A DNA stretch of 40,733 bases, taken from the IMG/VR virus record IMGVR_UViG_3300047546_003137, positions 1 through 40,733 of that record. One strand, written 5' to 3'. Position 1 is the first letter of the stretch. Every line of letters starts with the position of its first letter. The translations under genes and the position numbers were made by a program. A model generated the notes under the pieces. That model was not told the origin of the DNA. It saw only the letters and a program-made list of their open reading frames with translations, and did no database searches. Source of the DNA: a virus. This document shows, piece after piece, positions 14,127 through 40,733 of this stretch.

Positions 14127-16301
14127 ATGGCGATCAGCGTATCATTTAACGGCGCTACGATTTACAAGCCCGGTGCGTACTCAAAAACCACCATCGACCT
14201 ATCTGGCAACGTCCCGCTCGGACCAGCCGGTCTGATTGCAATCTTCGGCGAAGCGGACGCTGGCGCCCCAGGGTCGGCAGAGACCAATATTGCTGATAAC
14301 TTTTTCACGTCAGACAGGCTGATTGAGGCTCGCAACAAATATAGATCTGGTCCTATTGTCGACGCTCTTAATTTCTTGTTCTCGCCCGCATCCGATGGCG
14401 CGATTCCTAGTGGCGCTCAGGTTGTTTGGGTTTATAAAACCAACGCTTCCACGCGCGCATCTTTAGCTCTCGCAGGATCTTATGGCTCAGTAAGAGCTAG
14501 AGAATGGGGGGTTGGCGGAAATCAATCTTCTCTGAAGATCCTAGCTTCTGCGGAAGTTGCCCCCTCTGCAACAGGTTCTGCTCCTGCGGCTTTTGGCGCA
14601 GCGTTGAACGGCGCATCTTTTTCAGTTAGAGCAAACGGCGGCGCTTCTACGGTTGTGACGCTCAGCACAACGGCTACAGATCATGATACGCTAGCAAACC
14701 TAGTGATCGAGTTAAATTCTTTACTGCCAGTCGGCGTTACCGCGTCGGCAGCAGGTAGCGCAGTTAAGCTTCAGATGGCTGCTGCTCCAAGCCAGTACGC
14801 AGAAGGTTGGGGACGCTCACTAGAGCTAATCGATTCCACCCTGGGCGATCTGGCAAAACTAGGACTAGTTGCAAATCTTTATTCCGCCGCTGCGGAGCCA
14901 AACTGCACCATTACGATCTCTCAAAAAAGAGATCTCTTGGTTGAAGAGGACACCGTTGGTGGACACGTTGTACTAGAGATTGGTCGCGACGCTACAGGGG
15001 GCGCAACTACAGCATCTGTAACTGTTAACGCAACCCAAGTAATTCTTACGGACTCCATCGGGTCAAATACCTTTGATAAAGCTGCTTTTATCACAATTAA
15101 ACAGCTAGCTGAGTCTATTTCTTTGTATTCAGGTTGGACAGCCAGCGTCAGCAGCCCTGTTTATAACCAGTTGGGACTTGATGCTCTTGATCATGTGACT
15201 GCCGTTGGAGCATTTAGCTCAACTGGTGAAAAACCAGCTCGTCTAAAAAAAGACGCAATGGAAGTTCAGGATCTTTTTGAACAATCTAACGTTGCTGAAC
15301 TTGTCTCCCCGGTTGCTAAGGGGCTTCCTGCCGCTCTCGCCGAAACACTTCTCGCTGGCGGCGCAAAAGGTGGAACTCTTACGACAGACGTCGTGAATGC
15401 GCTTTCTAAGTTTGAAAAATTTCACGTTAACTCCATCGTTCCTCTTTTTTCAAGAAATGCAACCGCGGACATTACAGACAGCCTGACCGACGCAAGCTCG
15501 ACATACACAATCGACGGAATTCATCAAGCTGTTAAAACGCACATCAGCTTGATGAAAACGACCAAGAAGAAAAGCGAACGACAAGGATATCTGTCTGTTA
15601 AGGACACATACTCTAACTGCAAAGATAAAATCGGCAACATGGCAGATGCCAGACTGCAGATGGTAATTCAGGACGTTCGTCAAACAAACGCTCAGGGCGT
15701 CATCAAATGGTTCCAACCTTGGGCATTGGCCTGTTTGATGGCTGGAGCACGAGGCGGCGCGTCTATCGGTCTCCCGCTTACCTTCAAGTTCCTTAACTGC
15801 TCCGGTATTCGCCAAACGTCTCAGTCGATGAACACCGCTGAGGCTGATATTGTTGTGGATTTCGATCCAGACATGCAGTACGATGACGCAATTCAATCCG
15901 GTGTGACGTTCCTCGAAGCGCCAAGAACAGGCGGGTTCCGTGTGGTCGTTGACAACACCACCTACGGCATCGACGATAATTGGGTATACAATCGCGCTAA
16001 CGTATTGTATGCTGCTGATATTGTTGCGTACAACTTCCGCAACACGATGGAGCTGCGATATGTCGGCATAAAGAATACCCTTAGGGCCGCTGAAGTGCAA
16101 AGCACCGCAGAGTCTGTTTTGACCACATTCTTGGCCCAAGGAGTAACCGTTAGCACTGCGGACGCCCCTAACGGGTTTAAAGGACTGAGCATCAGGATCG
16201 ACGGCAACACAATCTATATCTCTGTGACGATTAAGCTTGTTGAAGGTGTCGACTTCGTGCTGGCCGATATCACGCTGCAGCGCGCTAGTCAGACCGCTTA
16301 A
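14127..16301 (+). CDS. Tail sheath protein, 724 aa
   Basis: Forms the contractile outer sheath. The N-terminus (FNGATIYKPGAYSKTTID, then GLIAIFGEADAGAPG) and the C-terminus (GLSIRIDGNTIYISVTIKL, VEGVDFVLADITLQRA) match phage sheath proteins. Near residues 120-360 there is an extra region with strand-rich repeats (TASVTVNATQVILT), presumably a surface domain. AGGAAGGATC precedes the ATG. At 724 aa it is larger than a P2-like sheath (about 400 aa) and near T4 gp18 (about 660 aa). A strong terminator-like hairpin follows. Confidence 0.92.
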   Translation: MAISVSFNGATIYKPGAYSKTTIDLSGNVPLGPAGLIAIFGEADAGAPGSAETNIADNFFTSDRLIEARNKYRSGPIVDALNFLFSPASDGAIPSGAQVVWVYKTNASTRASLALAGSYGSVRAREWGVGGNQSSLKILASAEVAPSATGSAPAAFGAALNGASFSVRANGGASTVVTLSTTATDHDTLANLVIELNSLLPVGVTASAAGSAVKLQMAAAPSQYAEGWGRSLELIDSTLGDLAKLGLVANLYSAAAEPNCTITISQKRDLLVEEDTVGGHVVLEIGRDATGGATTASVTVNATQVILTDSIGSNTFDKAAFITIKQLAESISLYSGWTASVSSPVYNQLGLDALDHVTAVGAFSSTGEKPARLKKDAMEVQDLFEQSNVAELVSPVAKGLPAALAETLLAGGAKGGTLTTDVVNALSKFEKFHVNSIVPLFSRNATADITDSLTDASSTYTIDGIHQAVKTHISLMKTTKKKSERQGYLSVKDTYSNCKDKIGNMADARLQMVIQDVRQTNAQGVIKWFQPWALACLMAGARGGASIGLPLTFKFLNCSGIRQTSQSMNTAEADIVVDFDPDMQYDDAIQSGVTFLEAPRTGGFRVVVDNTTYGIDDNWVYNRANVLYAADIVAYNFRNTMELRYVGIKNTLRAAEVQSTAESVLTTFLAQGVTVSTADAPNGFKGLSIRIDGNTIYISVTIKLVEGVDFVLADITLQRASQTA

Positions 16302-16322
16302 TTTAATCAAATTAATCGAACC

Positions 16323-16366
16323 AACGCCCTCTATGAAGTAAAATACTGATAGAGGGTGTTTTTTTT
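16323..16366 (+). terminator. Intrinsic terminator that contains the next gene's RBS
   Basis: AACGCCCTCTAT (16323-16334) pairs with ATAGAGGGTGTT (16349-16360), a 12-bp stem with one G-T pair and a 14-base loop, followed by eight T. This is a classic intrinsic terminator after the sheath gene. The AGAGGG in its 3-prime arm is the only ribosome binding site for the gene starting at 16367, and the ATG follows the T run directly. Confidence 0.85.
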
Positions 16367-16957
16367 ATGGAAAGATTAAATATTAACCGCTATGGCCAGT
16401 GGTCTCTGGAGAAGGCTAATAAATTAAAATTTGATCCACGCGAGACGTGGCACTCTCCTGCAGGCAAAGCTATGGCGGATTGGGTTTCAGATGAAAGCGA
16501 GCCTTTAGCCGCCGCAACTGCCAAAGCTCAAATACCGCGCATGGAGGGCGCAGCTAGAACCAGGGCTTTATCTAAATTAACAGCTGCGACACAGCATAGA
16601 AGAAACCCTAACACTGGTAAATTAGAGTTTTTGCTTCATCGCGGGATGTCGACAGACGAAGCAGATACCCACATAAAAGACGGCAGCGTAGCTCATCCAA
16701 GCGGCACGAGAACATCTTGGACGCCAAATGCTAAGGTGGCACATCGGCAAGCATACTACGAGGAACCTAAAGGCAAAGTAATTTCAGCTTGGGTTCCAGA
16801 AGATGCGCTGCACTCCTCGATACGACAATATTCTGGATCCACAGAGCGCCATAAAATATTAGCCCGCCAAGAAGATGAATGGATAGTGCATCACGGATCA
16901 TCCGGCATGGCATTACATGGCATTGTGGATGGCGTAAGACCCAAAGACCTAAAATAG
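16367..16957 (+). CDS. ADP-ribosyltransferase-like protein, 196 aa
   Basis: The C-terminal 110 residues carry the R-S-E pattern of mono-ADP-ribosyltransferases. LLHRGMS holds Arg92, RTSWTP (115-120) stands for the STS motif, and QEDEWIV has Glu169-x-Glu171. Such enzymes move ADP-ribose from NAD to a target; an ExE motif usually goes with arginine targets. The N-terminal 80 residues are helical and may direct packaging or binding. The gene sits among tail genes behind a terminator that holds its ribosome binding site, so low or timed expression is likely. Injection with the virion is a possibility. The call is from motifs only. Confidence 0.7.
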   Translation: MERLNINRYGQWSLEKANKLKFDPRETWHSPAGKAMADWVSDESEPLAAATAKAQIPRMEGAARTRALSKLTAATQHRRNPNTGKLEFLLHRGMSTDEADTHIKDGSVAHPSGTRTSWTPNAKVAHRQAYYEEPKGKVISAWVPEDALHSSIRQYSGSTERHKILARQEDEWIVHHGSSGMALHGIVDGVRPKDLK

Positions 16958-17054
16958 ACACCTAATCTTGATCGTGATAGTATATTATGATGGTGCGGTC
17001 GCATAGTGCGCTGCAACCCTAACGTATATGGGCTCTAGGGTCCCGAGGTGAAAA

Positions 17055-17582
17055 ATGACGCAAGGTGTAGGCCTAATCACAGGCGCAAATGGAAAAATAA
17101 AAGTAAATAACGTAACACTTGGCTATGCGACTAGCTTAAATCTTTCTACCAGGGTTGATATGATTCCCGGCGAAACAATGGGTAGATATGAGGTGGTGAG
17201 TAACGAGCCCATTGCGTATAGCACAAATGGAAGCTTTACGATGCTTCGTTACACTGAGGGCGGAGTGAAAGCCGGATTACCCGGGGTAAATAAAACCAGT
17301 GAGAGTAATAGTATCGGCGCCATTGGACTAAGCGGCCAGGTAAACCCATCTGCAATCCTAAACTCCGGTACTTTTGAAGTCGAAGTATACCAAAAAACAA
17401 GCGGCGACCCTAAAAGTCTTCAAATATTTAAAGTTTCTAATTGCAGAATTACCTCTAGATCTGGCGGCGTCAATAAAAGAGGTATTTATGAAGAAACATT
17501 TAATTTTGTTGGGATTATATCTGAAGACGACAGACTATCTGTCGTTAAACAAAGCAGTGCAACCGGCGCAATCATAATCTAA
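17055..17582 (+). CDS. Tail tube-like protein 1, 175 aa
   Basis: First of four tandem paralogs. GANGKIKVNNVTLGYATSLN and NEPIAYSTNGSFTMLRY are shared with the next genes, as is the CRITSRSGGVNKRG end motif. Position between sheath and tail chaperone, with a size near T4 gp19 (163 aa) and P2 FII (172 aa), fits a tail tube. GAGGTG precedes the ATG. It may be the major tube protein as the shortest and first copy, but this cannot be decided from sequence. Confidence 0.75.
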   Translation: MTQGVGLITGANGKIKVNNVTLGYATSLNLSTRVDMIPGETMGRYEVVSNEPIAYSTNGSFTMLRYTEGGVKAGLPGVNKTSESNSIGAIGLSGQVNPSAILNSGTFEVEVYQKTSGDPKSLQIFKVSNCRITSRSGGVNKRGIYEETFNFVGIISEDDRLSVVKQSSATGAIII

Positions 17583-23360: not shown

Positions 23361-24953
23361 ATGTCAACAATAGCGAACCCAACAGCAGCAATAATTGTTT
23401 ATAGCTATCGAGATCGCGGTGGCAGTACGCCTATTAGCTCTTCTTTGACAGAGCAAATTACTATAACAAAATCAATAATATCAATAGATACAATCAAGCA
23501 TAAATCTAGGCCTGCTGGCTCATTTGATATAAAGCTAGCGCCAACAAAAAACTGGACCGCAATAATATCTCCAGGTAGCTGGGTTGAAATTCACATGTCT
23601 TCGCGCATAATTGGTCAAGACGACCTGAAGCAGTGCGGCGAGGACACACTCAAAATGATTGGAACGATTGATTCAATCAGGATGAACGTTTCGGTCGACC
23701 CGACCACCGGTGCACGCAAAACAGTTTACTCTCTTCAGGGAAGAGATTGGGGATCTGTTTTCGAATCTTTCTTGTATGTTGACACCGCCCTAACAAACGC
23801 TCAAGATAGCGCGCTAGTAAATGCGCTTAATTTTTTATCAACAGTCGACGTTGGCGCAAAAGAACTCGGCGTGGTTGGAATTTACTCCCCTAAGGAGATG
23901 GTTGAAAAAATCATAAATCTCTGGGGGAGAAATATGGCGGTATTAGCTAAAAATATATTTAAATATTCGCAACAGTCGAAGTACTCCATACCGATGGGGT
24001 TAGCCTTAAAGCTTTCTTCAAAAAGTCCCTACGCGGCAGACAATATCAATGTAATTTCTGGTAAGCTGATTAGTAAAGACGTATATGTGCCCGTTAAAGA
24101 GTCTCTAGGCGTACTTAATCCGTTAATGCTTTTAGGGCCTCACGCTGTTTGGCAGCTTTTGATGGCTCACTCAAACAACATACTGAACGAATTGGTTGCA
24201 GAACTTAGATGGCAGGGTCCTTTTCCGGATTTTGCGCTATACCACAGGATCAAACCGTTTCAAGTAAAATCAAACAAACCCGCGTATTTTGCCTCAAACT
24301 TTTTCAACATAAAACAAAACAAAATACCAACGTACGACATAATGGGGATTGAAGCGGGAGATAACACTCAAGATATCGTAAATTTTATTGAAATATTGCC
24401 AGATATGTCTCTTGCTTCTCTGCCGGCTAGTGTTTCTAACGGCATCATAGCCGCGTCTAAACCTGATAGTTCCATTATTGACCCAGCGTCTCTTGCGCGA
24501 CACGGATTAAAGCCACTTACATATAGTAGCGTTTTTGCGCCAAGTGCTGGCGGTTATTTAAACTGGCTCGGTGTAAAAGATTGGTTGCCGATATTGCGCG
24601 ATTGGTACTTCGATTGTCATAAAATGCTAAACGGCACAGTTGTTATATTAGGCCAGGAGAAGTATATCGGCGTCGGCGAAAACATTGTTCTAGATTCCTC
24701 AGTTTTTGGCAATGCAAACTTTGTTAATGCCGATAAAACTAAGTTTGTGGCACACGTTGAGTCTGTTAGTCACAGTTTTGCATATGAACCTCAAAGAGGC
24801 AGAACGTTTGTTACTAGGATAAATTTCGTGAGAGGCGTGTTTGCAGACAGCAGTGCCTCTAAGTTGGCAAACCCAAATGCTTTCGGCATAGAAACCGATA
24901 GTTCTGCCCTACCCGATTCCAAAAAAGATATAGACAACGTTTATTTAGAGTAG
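23361..24953 (+). CDS. Baseplate hub protein (gpD/gp27-like), 530 aa
   Basis: Follows the tape measure. The N-terminus shows beta strands with SIDTIKHKSRPAGSFDIKLA, WTAIISPGSWVEIHMSS and IGTIDSIRM, a pattern of the hub proteins of contractile tails. The C-terminal part has HVESVSHSFAYEPQRGRTFV, also typical of hub proteins (GRTFVTRINFVRG). It probably forms the trimer that seats the spike. The ribosome binding site is weak. The assignment is from pattern and gene order. Confidence 0.75.
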   Translation: MSTIANPTAAIIVYSYRDRGGSTPISSSLTEQITITKSIISIDTIKHKSRPAGSFDIKLAPTKNWTAIISPGSWVEIHMSSRIIGQDDLKQCGEDTLKMIGTIDSIRMNVSVDPTTGARKTVYSLQGRDWGSVFESFLYVDTALTNAQDSALVNALNFLSTVDVGAKELGVVGIYSPKEMVEKIINLWGRNMAVLAKNIFKYSQQSKYSIPMGLALKLSSKSPYAADNINVISGKLISKDVYVPVKESLGVLNPLMLLGPHAVWQLLMAHSNNILNELVAELRWQGPFPDFALYHRIKPFQVKSNKPAYFASNFFNIKQNKIPTYDIMGIEAGDNTQDIVNFIEILPDMSLASLPASVSNGIIAASKPDSSIIDPASLARHGLKPLTYSSVFAPSAGGYLNWLGVKDWLPILRDWYFDCHKMLNGTVVILGQEKYIGVGENIVLDSSVFGNANFVNADKTKFVAHVESVSHSFAYEPQRGRTFVTRINFVRGVFADSSASKLANPNAFGIETDSSALPDSKKDIDNVYLE

Positions 24954-38794: not shown

Positions 38795-38806
38795 TTATAG
38801 GTAATG

Positions 38807-38846
38807 TATAATGCTATATATTGCTAAGTTTTACTTAGCAATATAT
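38807..38846 (+). promoter_or_regulatory. TATAAT box overlapped with a 13-bp hairpin
   Basis: TATAAT at 38807-38812 is followed by a perfect 13-bp hairpin: left arm 38816-38828 (core TTGCTAAG), loop TTTTA, right arm 38834-38846 (core CTTAGCAA). It is A/T-rich and no clean T run follows. It could end the J/I transcript, or fold in the leader of the next gene (start 38884). Confidence 0.55.
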
Positions 38847-38883
38847 TGATTTAATAAAGATATTAACAATATCAGAGGGTTAT

Positions 38884-40733
38884 ATGGCCGTTTTAGGAAG
38901 ACTGCTTGTCGGCTCACAGCAACGTATTGATTTGCCAGATTTTTTATCGTTGCAGTCTTACGTGGCATCTGATTTTAAATATCTAATTAAAAGCTTTATA
39001 GGCGATAGGGCTTTAATTTTAAAAGGCTTTGAAATAATTGACGCACCGCAGTCAATACAAAGCAACACAATTTCAATTAAAGTAGCAGATTCAGTAGTCT
39101 ACTATCCTTCTTCCTCGGCCGGTAGTTTCTTTTATGGTTTGCCAGAAGGGCAGGCTCTTTCGGCACCGCTAAGCCCCACACTAAAAGAAAATGCTACAAA
39201 TTATGTTTATGTTACGCTTACAACATCGGGACAGGGTCAAGATACACGCGCTTTTTGGGATGTTGACCTAAATGGTGGCGAAGGCGGAGAGTTTAATCAA
39301 GATATTAATACCGAGGGCGTTCTGGTTGCACAGGCCGGTGTCTCGACGTCAGGATTTCCTGACGGAACTGTTCCTATAGCCATCGTAGACATGGGTGTTG
39401 CGGCTATTAATAAAATCACCGATGCCCGAAATCTAATGTTTAGATTGGGCAGCGGGGGCGTGTCGCCAAATTCTAACGCAACTTTTCAATTTCCTCCGCT
39501 TCCAAGCGCTGAATACGCCAGAAATGAACCACCATCTACAATTCAATCAGCTGCCTCAGATAATCCGTTTTTTGGTGGAGATAAAAACATCCAATCGTTA
39601 AAAGATTGGATGGATGCTGTAATGACCAAGCTGTTAGAGCTTTCCGGTACTACATACTGGTACGAGACAACTCAAGCTCTTAACTTAGTAAATATATTCG
39701 ACGACGCACTAGGTTCAAGTGTTAAATCTAAAGGTCGCTGGAATCATGACGAATCGCAGCCAGGAATTATAACTTGGTCTGAAGACATCGTCTATAGAAA
39801 AATGAACGATAGACGGGATATTTTAATTAAGGCGAATCCAAACGACGGTGTTCAGTTGCAAAACGAACAGGTAATGTGGATTCAGCTAGAAAGAAATCAA
39901 CCTGTCAACCCGTTAGATACGCCATTAAAATTTTTACAAAATACAGCATATATTGACGCAGATCAAGCAGGCAGTTTTTCTAACATTAATATTGGCGACT
40001 GGATTAAGCGCCGCGGGGATAATGAAAACTTATATGTTCGTGTTAAAGGGTTTTTGGATTCAGATGGTCTAATTGCGACGCCCTCAACTGCTACTCGAGC
40101 AGTTTTAGAAAACGCATACCAGGGCGCAGAAGCAACCGAAAGTGCTGTTTACACAAAAGGTGTTTACAGTAATGCTGATATAAAGGTTAATAATAGAAAC
40201 GATGTAGCAGCATACGCCTCAGGGGGCGATTTTTATTGGCTTGCTAACCGTTCTGACACGGTTATGAGCATACAAAGTATTTCTCATCAGCTGGTTGCCG
40301 GTGTTCAGGTTGTAGAAGCGGATGGAAAAAAAGCAAAACTAAGATTTACATCTTCTCATGGCCTCGTTGACGGCGACAGGATTGTCGTCGCAGATGCACC
40401 CGCATACAACGGAACTTATCAGATTGATAAAATTAGCGATACAGAAATCAGCATTGAAACAACGGGAACTGGAAGTGCGACTGCCGTAGTTTCTTGGGCA
40501 ATAGTTACTACAAAAAGCACCGAAATAGGTATAGCTGGTTCACCAGATCAACTAGAGATTGAATCTGCAAACCATGGTTTTTCTAGCAATCAAACGATTT
40601 CTATATCGGGTACGGGTGTTTCTGCTTACGATACCTACGATGGCGGTGGCGGTGGCGCTGGAAAATACTTAATAAATACAAGAACAAACACTCAATTTCA
40701 AATACCTTTTTACAACAGCACTGCAGTAAACGC
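38884..40733 (+). CDS. Tail fiber/baseplate protein, partial, at least 616 aa
   Basis: ATG at 38884 with AGAGGG upstream; the frame is open to the window edge. The N-terminus (MAVLGRLLVGSQQRIDLPDF) is followed by a DTRAFWDVDLNGGEGGEFNQ segment and a virion-type IKVADSVVYYPSSSAG stretch, of the kind found in proteins that attach fibers to the baseplate. The C-terminal visible part has two HGL-type beta modules (SSHGLVDGDRIVVADAPAYN and SANHGFSSNQTISISGTG) resembling one in the previous gene. It may be a fiber or a distal baseplate protein. Confidence 0.75.
   Translation, partial: MAVLGRLLVGSQQRIDLPDFLSLQSYVASDFKYLIKSFIGDRALILKGFEIIDAPQSIQSNTISIKVADSVVYYPSSSAGSFFYGLPEGQALSAPLSPTLKENATNYVYVTLTTSGQGQDTRAFWDVDLNGGEGGEFNQDINTEGVLVAQAGVSTSGFPDGTVPIAIVDMGVAAINKITDARNLMFRLGSGGVSPNSNATFQFPPLPSAEYARNEPPSTIQSAASDNPFFGGDKNIQSLKDWMDAVMTKLLELSGTTYWYETTQALNLVNIFDDALGSSVKSKGRWNHDESQPGIITWSEDIVYRKMNDRRDILIKANPNDGVQLQNEQVMWIQLERNQPVNPLDTPLKFLQNTAYIDADQAGSFSNINIGDWIKRRGDNENLYVRVKGFLDSDGLIATPSTATRAVLENAYQGAEATESAVYTKGVYSNADIKVNNRNDVAAYASGGDFYWLANRSDTVMSIQSISHQLVAGVQVVEADGKKAKLRFTSSHGLVDGDRIVVADAPAYNGTYQIDKISDTEISIETTGTGSATAVVSWAIVTTKSTEIGIAGSPDQLEIESANHGFSSNQTISISGTGVSAYDTYDGGGGGAGKYLINTRTNTQFQIPFYNSTAVN

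Follow-up and report, generated by a model that had tools for sequence, protein, structure and literature searches.

The closest described counterparts of the element analysed here are hairpins that bury a ribosome-binding site. In long transcripts of phage T4, such hairpins conceal I-TevI, segB, mobE and gene e, which a late promoter located inside the hairpin releases (PMC2988022, PMC3014915); furthermore, I-TevI represses its own late promoter (PMC2988022). Hairpins of this T4 type are those of I-TevI, I-TevII, I-TevIII, segB, Aeh1 mobE, gene e and soc, and they are used for intergenic homing endonuclease genes. Two other kinds of known system are pertinent as well: intrinsic terminators, and the morons or free-standing homing endonuclease cassettes that place extra genes between conserved structural genes and leave remnants in sister phages.

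The locus studied here, which lies between the tail sheath and tail tube genes of an uncultured contractile-tailed phage, shares features with each of these systems. As in the T4 type, the ribosome-binding site is buried in long transcripts, the RNA expected from the candidate promoter lacks the 5' arm, and the element as found in relatives serves a homing-endonuclease-like gene. It differs from the T4 type in that the hairpin serves at the same time as a canonical intrinsic terminator, its eight T residues standing right before the ATG, in that the -10-like box sits in the loop and reads TAnAAT instead of the T4 late promoter TATAAATA, and in that the gene is ADP-ribosyltransferase-like (ART-like) and not an endonuclease. 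Since the loop box is not a T4 late promoter, we liken the element to the T4 system and do not class it there. With intrinsic terminators it has in common a GC-rich stem and a T run after the sheath gene, at a position conserved in all relatives read; unlike in the usual members of this class, the 3' arm doubles as a Shine-Dalgarno (SD) site and the loop contains a promoter-like box. Finally, the ART-like gene resembles a moron in its placement and in the remnants present in sister phages, but apart from the host terminator it has no expression signals of its own.

The analysed stretch of DNA, referred to here as the window, is IMG/VR record IMGVR_UViG_3300047546_003137 in its full length of 40,733 nt. 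Its relevant features are as follows.

14127..16301, plus strand: tail sheath gene, 724 aa (PHROG 279 tail sheath, E 6.4e-29)
16323..16366, plus strand: predicted intrinsic terminator of the sheath transcript (12-bp stem, 14-nt loop, T8)
16339..16344, plus strand: -10-like box TAAAAT in the hairpin loop (TAnAAT invariant in six elements; no -35)
16351..16356, plus strand: AGAGGG in the 3' arm, sole SD site for the ART-like gene; transcription is predicted to start at 16351
16367..16957, plus strand: ADP-ribosyltransferase-like gene, 196 aa (R92, TSWT 116-119, E169-D-E171)
16367..16414, plus strand: N-terminal tag MERLNINRYGQWSLEK of the ART-like protein, common to otherwise unrelated proteins of the phage group
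16975..16983, plus strand: extended -10 TGATAGTAT of the putative tail-tube promoter (TGnTA-type box at the same place in most relatives)
16990..17050, plus strand: structured 5' leader of the tube gene, with covariation across relatives
17055..17582, plus strand: tail-tube-like gene, 175 aa (by its position after the sheath gene; 38-41% identity to the homologous gene of relatives)

The name of the tube-like gene was given by position, as a PHROG search returned no match. The original prediction had the ART-like gene simply inside the tail operon; this description needs correction, because the gene occupies a gap bounded by the sheath terminator on one side and by a separate tube promoter on the other. 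The sheath stop codon (TAA, 16299-16301) is followed by a 21-nt gap and then by the order AACGCCCTCTAT-GAAGTAAAATACTG-ATAGAGGGTGTT, after which the ATG of the ART-like gene begins at position 16367. The end of the sheath gene (16279-16304) is also one copy of a 26-bp near repeat (85%), the other copy of which (23808-23833) lies inside an open reading frame at 23361-24953.

The two arms of the stem (16323-16334 and 16349-16360) form 12 base pairs including one G-U pair, or 11 without the closing A-T pair, which draws on the second T of the T run, and they enclose a loop at 16335-16348. Exactly eight T residues (16359-16366) precede the start codon (16367-16369) directly, and AGAGGG, a moderate SD site (GAGG) placed 10 nt upstream of the ATG, lies entirely within the 3' arm. 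When a second SD-like word was sought ahead of this ATG, AGAGGG alone was found. Folded as RNA, the hairpin has an energy of -24.6 kcal/mol against a mean of -14.1 for shuffled sequences (z -3.4). Its GC-rich stem with an immediate T run is that of an intrinsic terminator, and its position is conserved in the relatives read; from this anatomy and conservation we infer that the 44-nt hairpin terminates the sheath message in vivo. Thus, the claims that a sheath terminator with a 12-bp stem and eight T residues is present, that the sole ribosome-binding site resides in its 3' arm, and that the ATG stands directly behind the T run were all borne out.

The rarity of an ATG after a T run with an SD site in the arm was considered as an argument in its own right and then dropped, as the count is near chance level. 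Related phage DNA totalling 626 kb contains 32 terminators by strict criteria; four of them have an ATG 5-13 nt past the stem, which is about what base composition leads one to expect, and three of these four carry an SD-like word in the 3' arm. Because this geometry taken alone is near chance, the case rests on folding energy and conservation; what goes beyond chance in the compared sequences is that relatives conserve the arrangement in its entirety, with its stem pairing, compensatory changes and loop box.

The start codon of the ART-like gene is genuine, since the homologues in three relatives (L018, L022, L042) align from residue 1, and residues 1-16 form a terminal peptide that recurs in other phage proteins and there, too, begins with this Met. 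The arginine of an HRG motif (R92), TSWT (116-119) and EDE (169-171) are invariant in the four homologues. Their order R, S, E fits that of the R-S-E ADP-ribosyltransferases, and the 196-aa protein is thus a possible ADP-ribosyltransferase, an assignment made by motifs only; that the protein is toxic, as had been surmised, is a guess. The gene is under purifying selection (pN/pS 0.09-0.36). Searches of the protein against Pfam, PHROG, NCBIfam and the PDB yielded no match, and profile scans of viral contigs, a single scan of genomes, and scans of phage records, Pfam, PHROGs, NCBIfam, PADLOC and the PDB revealed no homologues beyond the four. AlphaFold2 models reached pLDDT values of 38 and 45, and a fold search with models of such low confidence came back empty and is uninformative. 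A candidate homologue in L085 was rejected as a chance match antisense to GC-rich genes. A distant, intact ART-like protein of 213 aa, equipped with the same terminal peptide, is encoded beside head genes in L028 (249-890; hhalign probability 85, E 6e-6, N-terminal half); it keeps HRG and SYS, and its ExE motif is less clear. Moreover, a decayed distant homologue is found at the same sheath-tube spot in L076/L077 (4263-4840), the L077 copy of which is interrupted by an in-frame stop codon and by a change of frame, with a C-terminal EEEVIV still readable.

The notion that the SD site is buried in read-through mRNA and would be exposed by a start inside the stem is supported by calculation. In upstream-initiated RNA of the window, the only ribosome-binding site is paired, and opening it is computed to cost 13.5-16.6 kcal/mol; in RNA starting inside the 3' arm, and hence devoid of the 5' arm, the site is free, at a cost of 1.8-2.2 kcal/mol (about 1.9). 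Over all seven loci that possess the element, the calculated cost in read-through RNA is about 12.5-18 kcal/mol, and it amounts to 2-6 kcal/mol in the relatives when the 5' end lies inside the 3' arm. A residual 5-6 kcal/mol persists at the SD site of the shortened RNAs of L018 and L022, where release would therefore be less complete. Other genes with the terminal peptide that were measured, including the ART homologues of L018, L022 and L042, each of which has its own SD site, cost only 1-4 kcal/mol. Hence, the lock is special to the position of the ART-like gene in the window.

The comparison with relatives covered 36 loci from a search with the sheath gene and 40 from a search with the tube gene. 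A terminator directly follows the sheath gene in all relatives read, and in many of them the tube promoter and its structured leader come immediately after it. GAGGG in the 3' arm with an ATG right after the T run occurs only in the window, L042, L044 (in which the arm reads GGGGG), L020, L084, L018 and L022. Six of these seven elements align gap-free over 38 columns with the stem 100% paired; two stem pairs have changed on both sides in a compensatory manner, and seven are invariant. In L018 and L022, the SD site of the element serves an endonuclease-like gene (MYKCHLCDL...), behind which the ART gene follows with an accessible SD site of its own, and L084 has the same endonuclease-like gene on the element together with an ART remnant. 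The element accordingly did not evolve for the ART-like gene alone. The endonuclease-like protein is Vsr-like with a P-loop-like C-terminus; that of L018 matches the PADLOC HEase family (E 2.4e-4, residues 178-251), and by sequence the cassette gene of L018, L022 and L084 encodes a homing-endonuclease-related nuclease domain with putative activity. Remnants of the endonuclease cassette are left in L042, L044 and L020, the last in the form of 'MYKT*' beside an HNH-type gene on the opposite strand. In the window the endonuclease is absent, and the start codon of the ART-like gene sits directly on the element. Among the loci compared, the form with the SD site in the terminator is specific to one putative cassette, a Vsr-like homing endonuclease plus ART, or to its remnants. 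More generally, the sheath-tube gap is, as judged from gene content, an insertion hot spot for homing-endonuclease-like genes (L018, L020, L022, L049, L054, L062, L074, L084); these are of the Vsr-like or the HNH-like kind, the C-terminal part being P-loop-like in several, and the HNH-like genes of L049, L054 and L062 are on the minus strand.

The loop of the hairpin adds a further element of conservation. Across six elements, 6 of the 16 loop columns are invariant, namely the T, A, A, A and T of TAnAAT and one G; all four bases are seen in the n column, and the columns flanking the box vary freely. That all five box columns fall among the six invariant ones has a hypergeometric probability of 0.0014 if columns are treated as exchangeable. 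The distance from TAnAAT to AGAGGG is constant in the six elements and makes the predicted +1 coincide with the first base of AGAGGG, and TAnAAT is found in the loop of none of 26 other sheath terminators. In L044, the endonuclease gene of which is truncated, the box has become TAAAAA, with its last T lost and the spacing changed. Of the six elements behind this conservation, four come from fairly close relatives, which leaves about three effective lineages; recency alone does not account for it, as silent sites are near saturation between the ART genes of the window, of L042 and of the L018/L022 pair (pS 0.76-0.82). The conserved -10-like box thus supports a candidate transcript start inside the stem. 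For the guess that a transcript begins there, the conserved TAnAAT, its fixed spacing and the +1 on AGAGGG speak in favour, but a recognisable -35 is missing (at 17-bp spacing, TCGAAC matches 3/6 positions). A promoter consensus scan did not call the site, a TG extension is absent except in L042, and the TCCGAA box of the early promoters was sought upstream and not found. With no -35 in sight, a promoter at this place could be of low strength, need an activator or be recognised by a phage factor. In three other relatives, a -10-like TATAAT or TACAAT stands just before the sheath terminator hairpin (L068 1287-1345, L074 2382-2440, L079 4193-4250), so placed that a transcript would begin at the base of the stem, and an inserted gene with an ordinary SD site lies downstream; this arrangement is a different solution to the same problem.

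The model to which we incline, with some reserve, assigns three jobs to the 44-bp element: terminator, SD lock and internal start. In RNA from the sheath promoter, the element would bring the sheath message to an end as an intrinsic terminator. Read-through is likely, because the stem starts only 21 nt past the sheath stop codon, and in an E. coli test system ribosomes repressed stems at distances below about 27 nt from a stop codon (PMC4824070). When polymerase reads through, the same stem would shut the SD site of the next gene, and the ART-like protein would hardly be translated. The -10-type box in the loop would, as the third job, allow polymerase to begin at the first base of the SD site, at about 16351; the resulting RNA would have a 16-nt leader and be translated, and as the 5' arm is missing from it, neither terminator nor lock could form. 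While the lock is based on calculated energy, we infer read-through, the start in the loop and its timing. The element would have belonged with a homing-endonuclease and ART cassette that settled between the sheath terminator and the tube promoter, with the endonuclease absent from the lineage of the window and the ART start codon brought onto the element. The outcome would be a weak, separately timed output of a cargo-like enzyme within the tail region.

It is possible, although we consider it unlikely, that the element is a terminator and lock only, with TAnAAT accidental or kept for another role and a trickle of ART-like protein made from read-through RNA whenever breathing, a helicase or a trailing ribosome opens the stem. 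The loop box that lacks both -35 and TG would then cause no surprise, and read-through is to be expected from the short distance to the stop codon (PMC4824070); however, loop conservation coincides with the -10 columns despite near-saturated silent sites, and the cost of opening the stem (12.5-18 kcal/mol) would leave a very low yield for a gene under purifying selection. An opening of the read-through stem by a trans factor (a small RNA, a phage protein or temperature), with no internal promoter, we regard as improbable: the architecture is like that of translational expression platforms, and the long AT-rich loop is a possible landing site, but no partner was seen, albeit without a systematic search, and the element has no match in Rfam. 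We deem it very improbable that TAnAAT is kept by protein binding, the loop and stem being an operator for the endonuclease or ART of the cassette; the window and L042 retain the box without an endonuclease, and the columns beside it vary freely, although the element does travel with the endonuclease gene or its remnants and autorepressors of the I-TevI type bind sites overlapping their own promoter (PMC2988022). A reading in which the ART-like gene is carried along in silence, and in which its arrangement has no effect, could draw on the decayed homologues at the same spot in L084 and L077, but it is very improbable for an intact reading frame that is under purifying selection and has kept its start codon and tag.

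The tag itself extends well beyond this gene. The peptide MEKLIKxxNGQWSLvK, referred to as NGQW, is present at 23 places in 8 of the 14 records examined (window 16367-16414; L018, L022, L042, L028, L093, L095, L096, L097, L100, L107, L108, L110, L117, L119, L123-L126), at the N-terminus, at the C-terminus or between domains of otherwise unrelated proteins. Its carriers include the ARTs and two GNAT-like proteins, one recognised by a weak Pfam match and one by eye. A matrix search gave 22 matches above 30 bits and none between 13 and 30, and shuffled open reading frames produced none above the reporting cut-off of 11 bits; with this short query, the peptide was not found in 50,697 phage records. 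Alt of phage T4 is a packaged ADP-ribosyltransferase. Internal proteins of T4 have a targeting sequence in common (PMC3012670), and by analogy with this capsid targeting sequence the NGQW peptide may be a mark for virion cargo. The two are alike in that a short terminal peptide is common to ART-like and other (GNAT-like) enzymes; they differ in that the peptide is here NGQW and may stand at either protein end. One may go further and picture a mobile three-in-one 44-bp element that came with a homing-endonuclease cassette and was captured by an NGQW-tagged ART, a virion-borne Alt-like effector that would be off in sheath read-through RNA and on via a start inside the terminator, NGQW being a previously undescribed cargo tag common to numerous enzymes and small proteins of the phage group; this fuller scenario is tentative, and we hold it to be doubtful as a whole.

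On the far side of the ART-like gene, the extended -10 and structured leader ahead of the tube gene (window 16975-17054) are found at the corresponding position in about 30 distinct loci; wherever the number per genome was checked, it was one. In the window, the leader comprises a hairpin (16995-17014), a helix (17016-17021/17036-17041) and a possible third pairing (17030-17032/17042-17044). Compensatory pairs, taken from a hand alignment only, are CCCUA/UAGGG, CUCUA/UAGAG and UCCUA/UAGGA in groups A and B; group C has GGU/ACC and a second helix with many different pairings. Rfam contained no match to the leader, and in an automatic pseudoknot search the leaders were individually not significant. 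As simultaneous formation of both helices looks sterically unlikely in the group of the window, these may be alternatives, and the leader may function as an antiterminator, a translational operator or a stabiliser. Other promoter-like units are present elsewhere in the window. Its minus strand bears, between 2219 and 7750, repeated early-promoter-like TCCGAAA-N12-TATAAT motifs, often beside hairpins of the form GGCTCA-TCCG-TGAGCC; TCCGAAA is possibly a phage-specific promoter box about 30 bp upstream of the start. Another possible promoter-leader unit is the stretch at 38805-38853, in which TATAAT is followed by a strong AT-rich hairpin ahead of a gene at 38884.

Taken as a whole, one small element probably both terminates a message and initiates the following one, in the fashion of the T4 homing genes, and the model predicts a 5' end at the A of AGAGGG. 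The T4 rule that homing genes are hidden by RBS hairpins and released by an internal start would thereby be extended to an uncultured phage group. With the lock merged into the terminator of a neighbour, the incoming gene and the tail genes would leave each other undisturbed, and the lock is seen here changing its owner, from an endonuclease to an ART-like gene. Two leads of wider interest came up besides the element: the terminal peptide that many proteins have in common, and the tube gene's RNA leader with its covariation.
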